Below, piece by piece: positions 17,764-36,014 of a stretch of DNA of 64,000 nucleotides (within the stretch, counting starts at the first letter, position 1; each line of letters begins with the position of its first letter). The notes beneath the pieces are model-generated. The model searched no databases. It saw nothing but the letters and a program-made list of their open reading frames with translations, and was not told the origin of the DNA. The stretch is taken from NCBI GenBank assembly GCA_905221095.1, contig CAJNBV010000002.1:124001-188000 (forward strand), written 5' to 3'. Source of the stretch: a bacterium (lineage in GTDB: Bacteria; Bacillota; Bacilli; Lactobacillales; Streptococcaceae). The translations under genes were made by a program, and so were the position numbers.

Positions 17764-17805
17764 GCACTATTCTTTCTTTTAACAAGGATAGATAAAATAA
17801 TAACC

Positions 17806-17842
17806 AAAAGACTAGCAGACACAAACTGCTAGTCTTTTGTCA
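17806..17842 (+). terminator. Terminator of the glyQS operon
   Basis: A 13-bp stem (AAAAGACTAGCAG / CTGCTAGTCTTTT) around a 7-base loop. The A and T flanks let it work in both directions. Confidence 0.85.
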
Positions 17843-17878: not shown

Positions 17879-19120
17879 TTAGTTGCTTGCGCCAGATGTA
17901 GCGTCTGCGCCACCACCGTGGCCTCCAGCATCACCTGCATCAGAAGCGCCAGATGTAGCGTCTGCGCCACCACCGTGGCCTCCAGCAGGAGCTGCAGCAT
18001 TTCCACCAACTAGACGTTGACCAGTCGTATTGAGGTACCAGTCAAGCCATGGTTGGAAATTAAAGATGATTTCATTGATTCCAGCATATGAACCATCTGG
18101 ATAGTACATTGCTTGGTAATTGTGGGTATTTATAACGCCTTCTGGTGTTCCTGGCACAATTGTACGGACATATTCTTGGTCCCCGTTACGCAATACGCCA
18201 ACAACCCATTCAACGTTTTTCATTCTAGAATCTGGCAATGAACCGTGTACAGTTCCTAAACGGTTTCCTGATTGAGCACGTACACGTTTACCAAACATTG
18301 TATTTGGATCTTGGTGTGCGTCATTAAAGTACAAGAATTGGTTATTATCGTCTGCAAATGTCAATTCAAATGGCATTGCTTTCAAGAACATATCAATTTG
18401 GTTAACTGTTAAGATACCGTGGTCTAATTTAACGTAAGTATCTCCTGAAACAGCTCCAACAAGTTCAGCTGCTTTTTCTACCCATTCAGGATCATCAGGG
18501 TCAACACCTTGAATGGTAGTTGCAATTGAATTTGTACAATATAAATCTTCTGGTTCAATTGGTTTTGGTTTTTTCAATTTTGAAACGACTCCCACATATT
18601 TTACAAAGTTGTCCAAGCATGTTTCAAGGAAATTAATAGTTCCTTCATTTGTGATATTGCCCTCTGCGTCAAATGCTTCTTTGGCTTTACCAAGAAGGAA
18701 TTCGTTACCTGGAAGTGTGTAGGCATTAACACCTGGAGCGTCAAGAATCTTACGAAGGTGAACTTGGGCACGAGAAGTACCTTGGTCGTAGTAAGATGCA
18801 CCCACAATCATGACTGGTTTGTTTTCAAATGGATGAACTTCGTATGAAAGCCATTCAAGAACAGATTTTAGGGAAGCTGAGATTGTGTGGTTGTGCTCAG
18901 GAGTAGCGATAATGACACCATCAGCACGAGTAATTCTGTTATACAAGAGACGCAATTGGAAACTTTCATCCCATTTTTCGTCTTGGTTAAACATTGGAAC
19001 TTCGTCAATTTCAAGAACTTCTAATTCAAATTTGAGTTTGAAGTGACGACGGATGAATTCCAAGAGTTTACGGTTATATGATTGATCGTAGTTTGATCCT
19101 ACAAGTCCAACAAATTTCAT
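17879..19120 (-). CDS. NADPH-dependent FMN reductase with PAS-like domain and duplicated flavinylation-like tail
   Basis: A 413-aa cytoplasmic protein in three parts. Residues 1-180 are a flavodoxin-like FMN reductase: VGSNYDQSYNRKLLE, then TPEHNHTISASLKSVLEWLS. Residues about 220-370 look like the PAS-type module found in DUF438 proteins (GKRVRAQSGNRLGTVHGSLP and following). The C-terminal tail is low complexity and repeats GGHGGGADATSGAS twice. Each copy contains DATSGAS (Asp387-Ser393 and Asp406-Ser412), which fits the Dxx(S/T)GA(T/S) motif that ApbE flavin transferases modify with FMN. An apbE gene is in the same operon, so I infer covalent FMN on the tail serines, passing electrons from the reductase domain. 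The electron acceptor is unknown. No signal peptide is present. Confidence 0.8.
   Translation of the reverse strand: MKFVGLVGSNYDQSYNRKLLEFIRRHFKLKFELEVLEIDEVPMFNQDEKWDESFQLRLLYNRITRADGVIIATPEHNHTISASLKSVLEWLSYEVHPFENKPVMIVGASYYDQGTSRAQVHLRKILDAPGVNAYTLPGNEFLLGKAKEAFDAEGNITNEGTINFLETCLDNFVKYVGVVSKLKKPKPIEPEDLYCTNSIATTIQGVDPDDPEWVEKAAELVGAVSGDTYVKLDHGILTVNQIDMFLKAMPFELTFADDNNQFLYFNDAHQDPNTMFGKRVRAQSGNRLGTVHGSLPDSRMKNVEWVVGVLRNGDQEYVRTIVPGTPEGVINTHNYQAMYYPDGSYAGINEIIFNFQPWLDWYLNTTGQRLVGGNAAAPAGGHGGGADATSGASDAGDAGGHGGGADATSGASN
17889..17987 (-). repeat. Perfect 42-bp direct repeat in the reductase tail
   Basis: Identical 42-base copies at 17889-17930 and 17946-17987 (57-base period, 19 codons) encode the twin GGHGGGADATSGA segments. 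Being in frame, a gain or loss of one unit would change the number of predicted flavinylation sites without breaking the gene. Confidence 0.9.
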
Positions 19121-19138
19121 TCTTTATGGTCTCCTATC

Positions 19139-19744
19139 TTACAAATTTTCCCAGTCAAAGTCTTCAGCGTCTTTGCGAAGTAATGCTTGTGCATTGCGCA
19201 ATTTTTCTGTAATTTTTACAAAGATACGGAAGTCATCAAAAGTGGCATCCAGTTTTTTAATAACATCAAGATCAACCAAGTCGCCACTTGGGTTAAAGGC
19301 TTGAAGAGAGTGTGAAAGCAAGAATTCATCAGGAAGGACACTTGCTTTGATTTCTGGTGCGTTTAAGATTTGACGAAGTTGTAATTGGGCGCGTGATGAA
19401 CCAAGTGTACCGTAAGAAGCACCTGTAATCATGATTGGTTTGTTCAAAAGTGGGTAAATACCATATGACAACCAAGCAAGAGCGCTCATCAAAACAGCTG
19501 GGATAGAGTGGTCGTACTCAGGAGTACCGATAATAACACCGTCTGCCTCTTCAATTTTAGTAGCAATTTCCAGAATTTCAGCAGGTACTTGCTTGTCAGC
19601 TGGTTTGTTGAAGACAGGAATGTCCTTGATTTCAACAAGTTCAATTTCAGCTTTGTCAGCAAAGTGTTTTTGCATGTATTGAAGCAATTGACGGTTTGTA
19701 GAACGTTTTGAATTTGTTCCAACAATAGCAATAAGTTTTAACAT
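19139..19744 (-). CDS. NADPH-dependent FMN reductase
   Basis: A 201-aa flavodoxin-fold reductase that passes electrons from NAD(P)H to FMN or a bound-flavin substrate. The N-terminal phosphate-binding loop is VGTNSKRSTNRQLLQY. The TPEYDHSIPAVLMSALAWLS and GASYGTLGSSRAQLQLRQIL blocks are shared with the reductase domain of the gene 18 bases downstream, so the two are paralogues. It has no extra domain or tail. It is the middle gene of the apbE operon, which suggests the pair feed or use the same flavin. Confidence 0.88.
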   Translation of the reverse strand: MLKLIAIVGTNSKRSTNRQLLQYMQKHFADKAEIELVEIKDIPVFNKPADKQVPAEILEIATKIEEADGVIIGTPEYDHSIPAVLMSALAWLSYGIYPLLNKPIMITGASYGTLGSSRAQLQLRQILNAPEIKASVLPDEFLLSHSLQAFNPSGDLVDLDVIKKLDATFDDFRIFVKITEKLRNAQALLRKDAEDFDWENL

Positions 19745-19803
19745 GAGATTTCCTTTCTCTTTTTACATAATACGAATTTAAAACTCCATTGAAATATCTA
19801 TTT

Positions 19804-20727
19804 CTATAGAGTAGGAACTCCTGAAGAACAGCTTAGGTGACCTTCCTTATCGATGAGGATGGCTTCGATTCCCTCCAAACTTTCGACTTGCCAGAGGATA
19901 GAAGCAGGTCTTTCTCCAAAGAGTCGAGTTGTCCAGATTTCGCCATCGACTGACTTATCAGAGATGATTGTGAGACTAGCAAGTTCCGTTTCAATAGGAT
20001 ATCCTGTCTGACTGTCAAAAATGTGATGGTAATCTTTTCCATCGACTGTCAGGTGACGTTCATAAATGCCTGAAGTCACGACAGATTTATTGACAGCAGG
20101 AATGGTCATTAAGTGATTGCCCCTCGGATTGGCTGGATCTTGAATCCCGATTTGCCAAGGTTGATTCCCTCTTGCCTGATTTTTTCCAATGGTAAGGATA
20201 TTCCCTCCTAGATTGATCAAGGCAGAAGTCACTCCCTCTTCTCTCAGAAATTGGGCAACCTTATCCGCACTATAACCCTTGGCTAAACAACCTAGGTCTA
20301 TCTTCATTCCTTTCTGTTTTAGAAACACAGTCGAAGTAGAAGAATCTAACTCGATAAAATGAGGATTGATTAAAGGGAGCACGGATTCAATTTCTTGAGG
20401 TTGCGCAACTTTGGCATCCGAAAAACCGATGCGCCAGGTTTGAATTAAGGGACCAATACTGATGTTGAGATGGCTAGAGGGCGCTAGGCTATGCTCTAAA
20501 CCAAGTGAAATCAGTTCAAACAGATCTGGATGAACCTTGACGGGTGCTATTCCAGCTTGATGATTGATTTCCATCAATTCAGATTCTTGGCTATTGGCAT
20601 TGAAGCGGTATTCGAGCTCTTTGAGTAAATCAAAGGATTTTTGGAGCAAGCTATCGGCTCGCTCATCCACTAATGAAATCGTGATAGTGGTTCCCATTAG
20701 GCGTTCAGAATGTGAACTAAGAGGCAA
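19804..20727 (-). CDS. apbE: Cytosolic FAD:protein FMN transferase (ApbE family)
   Basis: Transfers FMN from FAD onto Thr or Ser of target proteins. 307 aa. Family motifs: LMGTTITISL near the start, IDLGCLAKGYSADK, ALINLGGNI, VTSGIYERH, HHIFDSQTGYP and the metal-site region SVDGEIWTTRLFG. Unlike most ApbE proteins it has no signal peptide or lipobox, so it should work in the cytoplasm. The start is TTG 20727, 8 bases after AAAGGAG; the next ATG (residue 11) would cut into the conserved MGTT block. First gene of a three-gene operon whose last product carries two motifs of the type ApbE modifies. It could serve other targets too. Confidence 0.88.
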   Translation of the reverse strand: MPLSSHSERLMGTTITISLVDERADSLLQKSFDLLKELEYRFNANSQESELMEINHQAGIAPVKVHPDLFELISLGLEHSLAPSSHLNISIGPLIQTWRIGFSDAKVAQPQEIESVLPLINPHFIELDSSTSTVFLKQKGMKIDLGCLAKGYSADKVAQFLREEGVTSALINLGGNILTIGKNQARGNQPWQIGIQDPANPRGNHLMTIPAVNKSVVTSGIYERHLTVDGKDYHHIFDSQTGYPIETELASLTIISDKSVDGEIWTTRLFGERPASILWQVESLEGIEAILIDKEGHLSCSSGVPTL

Positions 20728-20967
20728 GCTACCAACTCCTTTCTCTTATGAAAAGAAGATTGAAATATAGTAAATTTATGAAAAATGAACCCCTTACATT
20801 TTCTTTCCATGATACTAGCATACCATAAAGTCAGCGTTTTCACAAATAAAATTTGTAAAGATGTCAAGAAATATGCTCAGTAAATGAAGAAAAATTGCAA
20901 GAATCCGTGTTAAGATACAGATTATTTACAATTTTTTACAAAAAAATAGGAAAAATCAGCCAAACTC

Positions 20968-20996
20968 TTGTAAACGCTAACAATAAATGTTATACT
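20968..20996 (+). promoter_or_regulatory. Promoter of nox
   Basis: TTGTAA at 20968-20973, 17-base spacer, TATACT at 20991-20996. Confidence 0.75.
20969..20982 (+). promoter_or_regulatory. CcpA-type cre site in the nox promoter
   Basis: TGTAAACGCTAACA matches TGNAARCGNWWWCA at every position and overlaps the -35 and spacer. Binding there should repress, or at least modulate, nox according to sugar supply. Confidence 0.7.
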
Positions 20997-21033: not shown

Positions 21034-22413
21034 ATGAGTAAGATCGTTGTAGTCGGTGCTAACCACGCTGGTACAGCATGTATTAATACGATGTTGGATA
21101 ATTTTGGAAATGAGAACGAAATCGTTGTATTTGACCAAAACTCTAACATCTCTTTCCTAGGATGTGGAATGGCCCTTTGGATTGGTGAACAAATTGACGG
21201 TGCTGAAGGCTTGTTCTATTCTGATAAAGAAAAATTGGAAGCTAAAGGCGCTAAAGTCTACATGAACTCACCAGTTCTTTCAATCGACTATGATAACAAA
21301 GTAGTTACAGCCGAAGTTGAAGGAAAAGAACACAAAGAATCATACGAGAAATTGATTTTCGCTACAGGTTCTACACCAATTTTGCCACCAATCGAAGGTG
21401 TTGAAATTGTTAAAGGAAACCGCGAATTTAAAGCAACTCTTGAAAACGTACAATTCGTGAAATTGTACCAAAACGCTGAAGAAGTTATCAATAAACTTGC
21501 TGACAAGAGCCAACACCTTGACCGTATCGCCGTTGTTGGTGGTGGTTATATCGGTGTTGAACTTGCTGAAGCCTTTGAGCGTCTTGGAAAAGAAGTTGTC
21601 CTTGTTGATATCGTTGATACTGTCTTGAACGGTTACTATGACAAAGACTTCACACAAATGATGGCGAAGAACTTGGAAGACCACAACATCCGTTTGGCTC
21701 TTGGTCAAACTGTTAAAGCAATCGAAGGTGATGGTAAAGTTGAACGCTTGATTACTGATAAAGAAAGCTTTGATGTGGATATGGTTGTTCTTGCAGTTGG
21801 TTTCCGTCCAAACACAGCCCTTGCTGATGGTAAGATTGAACTCTTCCGCAACGGTGCCTTCCTTGTAGACAAGAAACAAGAAACTTCACTTCCTGGTGTA
21901 TTTGCCGTTGGTGACTGTGCGACTGTTTATGACAACGCTCGTAAAGACACAAGCTACATCGCTCTTGCTTCAAACGCTGTTCGTACTGGTATCGTTGGTG
22001 CCTACAATGCTTGTGGACATGAATTAGAAGGAATCGGTGTTCAAGGTTCAAACGGTATCTCAATCTATGGTCTTCACATGGTTTCAACTGGTTTGACTCT
22101 TGAGAAAGCAAAAGCTGCAGGTTACAATGCAACTGAAACAGGCTTTAACGATCTTCAAAAACCAGAATTCATGAAACATGACAACCATGAAGTAGCGATT
22201 AAGATTGTCTTTGACAAAGATAGCCGTGAAATTCTTGGTGCGCAAATGGTTTCACACGATTCTGCTATTAGCATGGGAATCCACATGTTCTCACTTGCTA
22301 TCCAAGAGCATGTGACAATTGATAAATTGGCCTTGACAGACCTCTTCTTCTTGCCACACTTTAACAAACCATACAACTACATCACAATGGCTGCCCTTAC
22401 AGCTGAAAAATAA
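21034..22413 (+). CDS. nox: Water-forming NADH oxidase
   Basis: Oxidises NADH with four-electron reduction of O2 to water, regenerating NAD+ in aerobic streptococci that lack a respiratory chain. 459 aa. The FAD-binding start reads [17 protein letters not shown] with His11. The redox cysteine is Cys44 in FLGCGMALW, and the NADH-binding [11 protein letters not shown] is near residue 170. Family C-terminal block is [18 protein letters not shown]. The single active-site Cys in this context points to the water-forming Nox rather than CoA-disulfide reductase. A cre site lies in the promoter and a strong terminator follows. Confidence 0.95.
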
Positions 22414-35247: not shown

Positions 35248-35261
35248 TGTAAACGATAACA
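35248..35261 (+). promoter_or_regulatory. CcpA-type cre site of the fru operon
   Basis: TGTAAACGATAACA is a full match to TGNAARCGNWWWCA and lies at the predicted transcription start, where CcpA would block initiation when glucose is present. Confidence 0.8.
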
Positions 35262-35273
35262 GGAGGTGATTCG

Positions 35274-36014
35274 GTGTTAAAAACAGAGCGGAAGCAACTG
35301 ATTTTAGAGGAGTTAAATCAACACCATGTAGTTTCTCTAGAAAAATTAGTTAGTTTGCTAGAAACGTCAGAATCAACGGTTCGAAGAGACTTGGATGAGT
35401 TGGAAGCAGAAAACAAGCTTCGTCGCGTGCATGGTGGAGCAGAACTCCCCCACTCCTTACAGGAAGAAGAAACCATTCAAGAAAAATCTGTCAAAAACCT
35501 TCAAGAGAAGAAGCTACTAGCTCAGAAGGCTGCCTCTCTCATCAAGGAACAAGATGTCATCTTTATCGATGCTGGAACAACGACAGCCTTTTTGATTCAT
35601 GAATTGGGTAATAAGAATGTCACAGTTGTGACCAACTCTATTCACCATGCTGCACAGTTGGTTGAAAAGCAGATTCCGACTGTCATGGTTGGAGGAAGTG
35701 TCAAGACAGCTACGGATGCTAGTATCGGGGGCGTTGCTCTTAACCAGATTAACCAATTGCACTTTGACCGTGCCTTTATCGGGATGAATGGTGTGGACGA
35801 TGGCTATTATACGACTCCTGATATGGAAGAGGGAGCTGTGAAACGAGCTATTTTGGAGAATGCCAAACAGACTTATGTCTTGGTGGATTCGTCAAAAATT
35901 GGACAAACTTGCTTTGCTAAGGTAGCACCACTCAAACGAGCAATTGTTATCACAAGTCAGGGGCATGAGCTCTTGCAGACAATAAAAGAAAAAACGGAGG
36001 TAATAGAAGTATGA
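35274..36014 (+). CDS. fruR: DeoR-family fructose operon repressor
   Basis: 246 aa. N-terminal helix-turn-helix with the DeoR signature LLETSESTVRRDLDELEAENKLRRVHGGAEL, then a sugar-phosphate-sensing isomerase-like domain (IFIDAGTTTAFLIHEL, VVTNSIHHAAQL, FIGMNGVDDGYYTTPDMEEG). By position it senses fructose 1-phosphate and represses fruRKA, including itself. GTG start at 35274 with the strong site AGGAGGTGAT. Overlaps fruK by 4 bases. Might also be named lacR-like in older annotation, but the neighbours say fructose. Confidence 0.92.
   Translation: MLKTERKQLILEELNQHHVVSLEKLVSLLETSESTVRRDLDELEAENKLRRVHGGAELPHSLQEEETIQEKSVKNLQEKKLLAQKAASLIKEQDVIFIDAGTTTAFLIHELGNKNVTVVTNSIHHAAQLVEKQIPTVMVGGSVKTATDASIGGVALNQINQLHFDRAFIGMNGVDDGYYTTPDMEEGAVKRAILENAKQTYVLVDSSKIGQTCFAKVAPLKRAIVITSQGHELLQTIKEKTEVIEV

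Follow-up and report, generated by a model that had tools for sequence, protein, structure and literature searches.

We describe a three-gene operon from a bacterium of the family Streptococcaceae, located in a stretch of 64,000 nucleotides (assembly GCA_905221095.1, contig CAJNBV010000002.1, positions 124,001 to 188,000) that is referred to here as the window and whose own numbering is used below. The operon encodes an ApbE protein, that is, a flavin adenine dinucleotide (FAD):protein flavin mononucleotide (FMN) transferase; an FMN reductase of 201 residues; and a 413-residue protein (hereafter the fusion) in which an FMN reductase domain is joined to a PAS domain and a disordered tail carrying the motif DATSGAS twice. 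Our preferred interpretation, to which we assign a probability of roughly 0.6, is that the locus specifies a cytosolic flavin reductase heterodimer that oxidises reduced nicotinamide adenine dinucleotide (NADH) and has its own ApbE, with covalent FMN tethered on the tail passing electrons to O2 or another acceptor and the PAS domain serving mainly for docking.

In this model the heterodimer would consist of the 201-residue subunit and the FMN_red half of the fusion. ApbE would transfer FMN from FAD to the last serine of each DATSGAS, and the PAS_10 domain would act mainly as a docking module, holding the tail beside the heterodimer's two shallow FMN sites. The covalent FMN, as a tethered cofactor or substrate, would take electrons from NADH and hand them to O2, giving hydrogen peroxide, or to some other acceptor. 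The PAS-plus-tail unit would exist as a separate protein, LjPAS, in acidophilus-group lactobacilli. Both the tethering mechanism and the docking role of the PAS domain are what we infer from the comparisons presented below.

19804..20727, minus strand: apbE, FAD:protein FMN transferase, 307 residues, TTG start (PF02424, 1.9e-76)
19139..19744, minus strand: FMN reductase, probable partner subunit in the FRedA/HcrA position, 201 residues (Pfam FMN_red, 7.4e-35)
17879..19120, minus strand: protein of FMN_red, PAS_10 and putative flavinylation tail, 413 residues (Pfam, structure model, Foldseek)
18680..19120, minus strand: FMN_red domain, residues 1-147 of the fusion (Pfam, 7.8e-34; Foldseek 1rtt, 3svl)
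18056..18397, minus strand: PAS_10 domain, residues 242-355 of the fusion (Pfam, 6.8e-21; Foldseek 2qkp)
17882..18001, minus strand: tail predicted to be disordered, residues 374-413
17942..17962, minus strand: putative flavinylation motif 1, DATSGAS, residues 387-393 (sequence)
17885..17905, minus strand: putative flavinylation motif 2, DATSGAS, residues 406-412 (sequence)

On the minus strand apbE is followed after 59 bases by the gene for the 201-residue reductase and, after a further 18 bases, by that for the fusion. A structure model of the fusion, built on an alignment of 43 sequences, has a mean predicted local distance difference test (pLDDT) score of 84.4; it superseded a first model whose PAS region was poor (mean pLDDT 66.3), the later alignment being more diverse. 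By Foldseek the first domain resembles the FMN reductases 1rtt and 3svl and the second matches the C-terminal domain of SMU_1151c from S. mutans (2qkp), a structure also recovered by sequence search over residues 231-360. We regard the assignment of a PAS fold as sound. Residues 374-413 fall below a pLDDT of 50, hence the predicted disorder of the tail. The closest solved relative of the ApbE is the FAD:protein FMN transferase 7esa (1e-76), with which its TSGxYER and YHHIxD stretches align. Neither the signal peptide nor the lipobox of an exported, lipoprotein-type ApbE was seen when its N-terminus was judged by hydrophobicity and by eye rather than with a signal-peptide predictor: the best 15-residue hydrophobicity mean in the first 45 residues is 0.65, whereas the long ApbEs L164 and L166 reach 1.9.

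Much of the original prediction, which had been made from the nucleotide sequence alone, survives this analysis. Its span of 17879-20727 and its three minus-strand reading frames are exact; the apbE gene does start with TTG and encodes no strongly hydrophobic stretch in those first 45 residues; the plain FMN reductase of the operon does match Pfam FMN_red. The supposed target without an FMN_bind domain is just that, only FMN_red and PAS_10 being found in it by Pfam. The region described as PAS-like, for which a structure prediction had been proposed, proves to have a true PAS fold, and the tail of this soluble reductase was rightly taken to be disordered. The central claim of a cytosolic ApbE with a flavinylatable reductase tail is largely supported but not new, since flavinylation of the class has already been shown in Lactococcus (PMC11334425).

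That class comprises FMN_red proteins with a C-terminal extension bearing one to two flavinylation motifs and encoded near apbE (Huang et al. 2024, PMC11334425). In that paper, two Lactococcus members are flavinylated in gel assays and require the predicted serine or threonine; the Results state that the cognate apbE was co-expressed, the Methods describe the addition of purified Listeria ApbE to lysates. The fusion likewise combines FMN_red (PF03358), an unstructured C-terminal extension with the motif D-x-x-[S/T]-G-A-[S/T] and a nearby apbE; judged by its sequence, the locus is a member of the published class. The full length of an incomplete L. lactis protein (P0186) is found within P0158, a longer sequence that goes on to two DATSGAS motifs, and the published Lactococcus proteins and the fusion are likely to be one family. 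By analogy, the tail of the fusion would be flavinylated in the organism studied here. The paper differs in that it names no PAS domain (0 hits) and, in the parts considered here, mentions neither a partner reductase nor hydrogen peroxide; it places the class in the setting of extracytosolic flavinylation. A cytoplasmic ApbE without a signal peptide is also described for Klebsiella pneumoniae, where it modifies a soluble fumarate reductase for which the sections consulted describe no tail of the FMN_red/PAS kind (PMC12052999). Seven residues are enough for flavinylation, and N- or C-terminal tags serve best (PMC12052999). For the S. pneumoniae locus tags SP_1470-1472, the openly licensed PMC papers as listed showed nothing on this function.

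Tail motif and association with apbE

We searched with a strict motif, D..[ST]GA[ST], and a relaxed one, D..[STA][GSA]A[ST]. Among the best 120 of 1342 homologues of the fusion (the closest being P0001, named from Streptococcus mitis), 119 have the strict motif in their last 80 residues, the exception being P0017. The 55 fusions that were fetched have 30 distinct tails; 26 of these carry two strict motifs, and the remaining four carry one, with DATAGAS (3) or DATSSAS (1) as the second copy. In all 56 intact motifs of the 30 tails, positions 2 and 3 are alanine and threonine, encoded by varying codons, and the last serine uses five codons drawn from both serine codon boxes. Positions 1 and 4-7 are constrained in kind by the search pattern and so give no independent evidence of conservation.

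Further afield, 40 fusions from 38 other Lactobacillales genera, hand-picked from the higher-scoring ones listed and so biased towards intact fusions, all have a relaxed motif in their last 140 residues, 30 of them a strict one, and none occurs in the 11,534 residues upstream of those segments. At least three relaxed motifs are present in 29 of the 40 tails, with a maximum of seven, and DxxSSAS is the commonest departure from the strict form. One tail (L216 2347-3951, genome G284) has six strict motifs, the highest number among these 40 loci. Because the motif is kept across diverged linkers and changing synonymous codons, these sequence comparisons indicate that it is under selection. What had been proposed for the tail needs correction on two points: the longer GGHGGGADATSGAS is indeed repeated exactly twice, but conservation is confined to DATSGAS, and the tail of the window's protein is rich in histidine and glycine, a richness that many homologues, including those of other genera, have lost while retaining the motif.

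The fusion travels with apbE, a co-occurrence that it had been proposed to check. Counted by eye, and with presence defined as a match at E <1e-100 that includes broken genes, the fusion occurs in 162 of 197 Streptococcus genomes. All but one of the 162 (161) also match apbE, and in the one that does not, G162, the fusion is broken. Three more genomes without apbE (G042, G054 and G056) are also without the fusion. Inspection for broken fusions covered 26 of the 197 genomes and found the gene in pieces in G162, in G078, where apbE is broken as well, and in G016 and G126, where apbE remains; in G135 the PAS-tail part forms a separate frame of 245 residues. Where coordinates of both genes were among the rows listed (107 genomes), apbE lies upstream of the fusion on the same strand in 103, at a distance of 699-1252 bp (median 711) that leaves room for the small reductase, and elsewhere in four. 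A relative of the small reductase adjoins the fusion in all 40 distant loci. In 28 of these, apbE, recognised there by similarity to the window's ApbE only and within stretches of about 4-5.5 kb, is in the same stretch (downstream of the fusion in L197 and L206); the remaining 12 genomes also have apbE matches. The order apbE, FRedA-type reductase, fusion is thus conserved. Two homologues join parts of the system differently: P0155 combines an ApbE segment with the PAS-tail region (both Pfam domains present), and P0237, named an FMN transferase, ends in the tail; each may be an in-frame deletion or an assembly error.

Could ApbE have another substrate elsewhere in these genomes? As candidates we considered FMN_bind, for which 113 of the 197 Streptococcus genomes have no match, and DUF2271, which is absent from all 197; DUF3570, NqrB/RnfD and Flavodoxin_4 were not included in the search. 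A fusion without any FMN_bind match is found in 104 genomes, 103 of them with apbE. Because these genomes have no FMN_bind match and DUF2271 occurs in none of the 197, no known kind of ApbE substrate other than the tail was found in the 104 genomes, as far as FMN_bind and DUF2271 are concerned. Of the 35 genomes without the fusion, 32 keep an apbE match, and 26 of these have FMN_bind matches as possible targets (that of G012 lying below the curated cut-off).

Relation to FRedA/FRedB, LjPAS and HcrA/HcrB

FRedA/FRedB of Lactobacillus johnsonii (lj0548/lj0549) is a heterodimer that takes electrons from NADH and forms hydrogen peroxide (Valladares et al. 2015, PMC4500961). It has two shallow FMN pockets and binds FMN weakly (dissociation constant 1.96 uM; 0.58 FMN per purified dimer), and it uses neither menaquinone nor menadione (PMC4500961). 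Its partner LjPAS, a PAS protein of 28 kDa, has homologues that occur elsewhere among lactic acid bacteria as fusions with FMN reductase; LjPAS itself was made in E. coli, with apbE not among the constructs described (PMC4500961). The paper gives 0 hits for ApbE or flavinylation (PMC4500961).

The streptococcal operon has the same elements, two adjacent FMN_red genes and a PAS_10-type partner, with the difference that the PAS unit is a separate protein in L. johnsonii and part of the 413-residue protein in streptococci. A small tree places the fusion's FMN_red half together with one of the two L. johnsonii subunits and the 201-residue protein with the other (Lj_184), on long branches and with weak support. 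HcrA/HcrB of Lactiplantibacillus plantarum is likewise a heterodimer of a small FMN_red-type partner and a large NADH-dependent protein, HcrB reducing hydroxycinnamates (PMC10295242). By analogy with both pairs, the 201-residue reductase is probably a partner subunit, which would make the unit a heterodimer instead of the one self-contained reductase protein that had been envisaged; the presence of the small gene beside the fusion in all 40 distant loci speaks against the earlier idea as well. The acceptor, left blank in the original prediction, now has a strong candidate: from FRedA/B, O2 would be the best candidate in streptococci, giving hydrogen peroxide.

In the L. johnsonii ATCC 33200 locus (L113) we find a stand-alone PAS protein of 244 residues (28.0 kDa calculated) bearing DATTGAT, DTATGAS and DTSSGAS, which we take to be LjPAS from its species, size and domain. 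Among the 39 loci of this protein, 38 encode one or more strict motifs; the other, L149, has a short frame. From these motifs and the tails of the fusions it follows that the motif accompanies the PAS domain, fused or not. On sequence grounds, PAS plus tail seems to be the unit that is flavinylated, as part of a fusion in streptococci and as a protein of its own in acidophilus-group lactobacilli. A near-identical PAS protein, differing at 1 of 244 residues, occurs in genome G205, where two FMN reductase genes 12 bases apart are followed in one gene row by two further genes and an apbE that encodes no signal peptide, the PAS gene lying about 98 kb away; a 12-base spacing is also stated for the FRedA/B genes (PMC4500961). 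Two kilobases past the LjPAS-type gene of L113 (12780-13316) there is a second stand-alone PAS_10 protein, of 178 residues and ending in DAESGASEL. Among 35 listed relatives, 28 have a relaxed motif in the last 25 residues. The 178-residue protein is a possible second flavin carrier.

The flavinylation described for Lactococcus, FRedA/B and LjPAS would then belong to one system. A broader version of this idea, which we advance tentatively and at slightly less than even odds, is that PAS_10 plus tail is a unit modified by ApbE that switches between fusion to an FMN reductase and life as a stand-alone cytosolic flavin carrier, that LjPAS, once flavinylated, is the carrier for the peroxide-forming NADH oxidase of L. 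johnsonii and was assayed in its unmodified form, and that several swappable carriers exist, the 178-residue DAESGAS proteins included. The link between flavinylation and FRedA/B-LjPAS looks new: none was seen in the titles, opening lines of abstracts and sections examined of the openly licensed PMC papers listed, subscription papers lying outside the scope of the search.

A further arrangement is seen in Streptococcus genome G062 (L151 850-3654), where the gene after a small FMN reductase encodes FMN_red, FMN_bind (bearing the motif DAISGAS) and FAD_binding_2 in a single protein, an order that we take to be the architecture of HcrB. On architecture only, this 808-residue frame may be a relative of HcrB. 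It shares the FMN_red half of the fusion, joined to another covalent-flavin module, and differs in having FMN_bind and FAD_binding_2 in place of PAS and tail. Its DAISGAS ends in serine, as do the tail motifs.

Alternative explanations

Several points weigh against the proposed heterodimer with a tail-tethered flavin. In vitro, FRedA/B is active on free FMN with no PAS-tail protein present, and LjPAS slowed FRedA/B assembly and did not activate it (PMC4500961). The orthology of the subunits with the L. johnsonii pair rests on long branches with weak support in the small tree. Homologues that keep apbE and lack any DxxSGAS-type motif had been named beforehand as evidence against flavinylation, and in form they exist: ten of the 40 distant fusions have relaxed motifs only, mostly DxxSSAS, although all 40 keep the relaxed motif. 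A Gly-to-Ala change at that position cuts flavinylation of a model target to about half (PMC12052999), and some DxxSSAS sites may be weaker targets. Finally, six genomes have an apbE match with neither fusion nor FMN_bind (G045, G089, G156, where the match is weak, G157, G160 and G161); a PAS_10 search in these six gave matches in two (G089 and G160), in frames of 455-564 residues.

The strongest competing account accepts flavinylation and replaces O2 as the main acceptor with a partner such as an enoate, quinone, disulfide or metal, much as HcrAB reduces hydroxycinnamates. We consider it somewhat unlikely. The HcrB-like protein shares both the reductase half and the small FMN_red neighbour, HcrB does reduce hydroxycinnamates (PMC10295242), and a neighbouring nox of the type that disposes of O2 as water is already present. 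Against this, the fusion has no domain for substrate reduction that Pfam recognises, FMN_bind and FAD_binding_2 of the HcrB-like frame being absent too, and FRedA/B made hydrogen peroxide and left menaquinone and menadione unused (PMC4500961).

It is also conceivable, if improbable, that covalent FMN merely anchors a prosthetic group, the tail folding back so that its FMN permanently fills the FMN_red pocket with no role as carrier. Huang et al. interpret the Lactococcus FMN_red proteins and Flavodoxin_4 in a closely similar way (PMC11334425), and the idea accords with weak FMN binding by FRedA/B (PMC4500961). Yet the heterodimer has two pockets, whereas, as noted above, 29 of the 40 distant tails carry three or more motifs and one seven, and in LjPAS-type proteins the motifs sit on a separate chain. 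Because motifs outnumber pockets in many relatives and may lie on a separate chain, we favour a carrier or tethered substrate.

Similarly doubtful is the suggestion, made both in the original prediction and by Valladares et al., that PAS_10 is a true redox or oxygen sensor gating the enzyme. LjPAS transcript levels change with aeration, in directions that are reported differently (a 3.07-fold drop at high oxygen in one passage of the paper, repression under anaerobic conditions in its abstract), and preincubation of LjPAS with FRedB halves the initial rate (PMC4500961). That effect vanished once the heterodimer had formed, and the sections considered show no cofactor or ligand of LjPAS (PMC4500961). 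A docking role is our preference.

Least probable by far is that the tail is unmodified, its repeats forming a flexible or metal-binding His/Gly segment while ApbE serves another protein: the His/Gly richness of the window's tail and the six genomes with apbE in which no known substrate type was found are set against the loss of histidine and glycine in many homologues that retain the motif (for which a metal-binding tail was also rejected as the main idea), synonymous codon change within the motif, linkage of the fusion to apbE and its loss with it, and flavinylation shown in the Lactococcus class (PMC11334425).

Surroundings of the operon and implications

Two further features adjoin the operon:

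17805..17839, minus strand: terminator-like hairpin 3' of the fusion gene (consensus match)
21034..22413, plus strand: H2O-forming NADH oxidase gene (nox), divergent neighbour, context only (NF046103, 3.2e-229, above cut-off)

Terminator-like sites number five in the region, against 2.8 (standard deviation 2.1) in shuffled sequences, and promoter-like sites show no excess there (8 against 8.5). An imperfect inverted repeat, TTCACAAAT / ATTTGTAAA, at 20839-20859 between apbE and nox is a possible operator. Two cre-like CcpA matches are found in the window where 0.19 would be expected, a number reached by 5 of 100 shuffles: TGTAAACGCTAACA at 20969-20982, overlapping a plus-strand promoter-like site 5' of nox, and TGTAAACGATAACA at 35248-35261, directly 5' of the open reading frame at 35274.

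Taken together, our findings would join two published stories that, in the parts of each considered here, do not refer to one another: ApbE-dependent flavinylation at the tails of FMN_red proteins, and hydrogen peroxide formation by L. johnsonii, which is attributed to the NADH oxidase. For the lone apbE found in many streptococci they offer a likely substrate, and they predict that LjPAS was assayed in its unmodified state. They also bear on why flavin is covalently attached in the cytosol. Covalent attachment has been argued to prevent the loss of flavin outside the cell, an argument that does not apply here because attachment would be cytosolic. On the broader version of our idea, lactic acid bacteria would possess, inside the cytosol, an equivalent of flavinylated electron transfer in which several carriers can be exchanged for one another.

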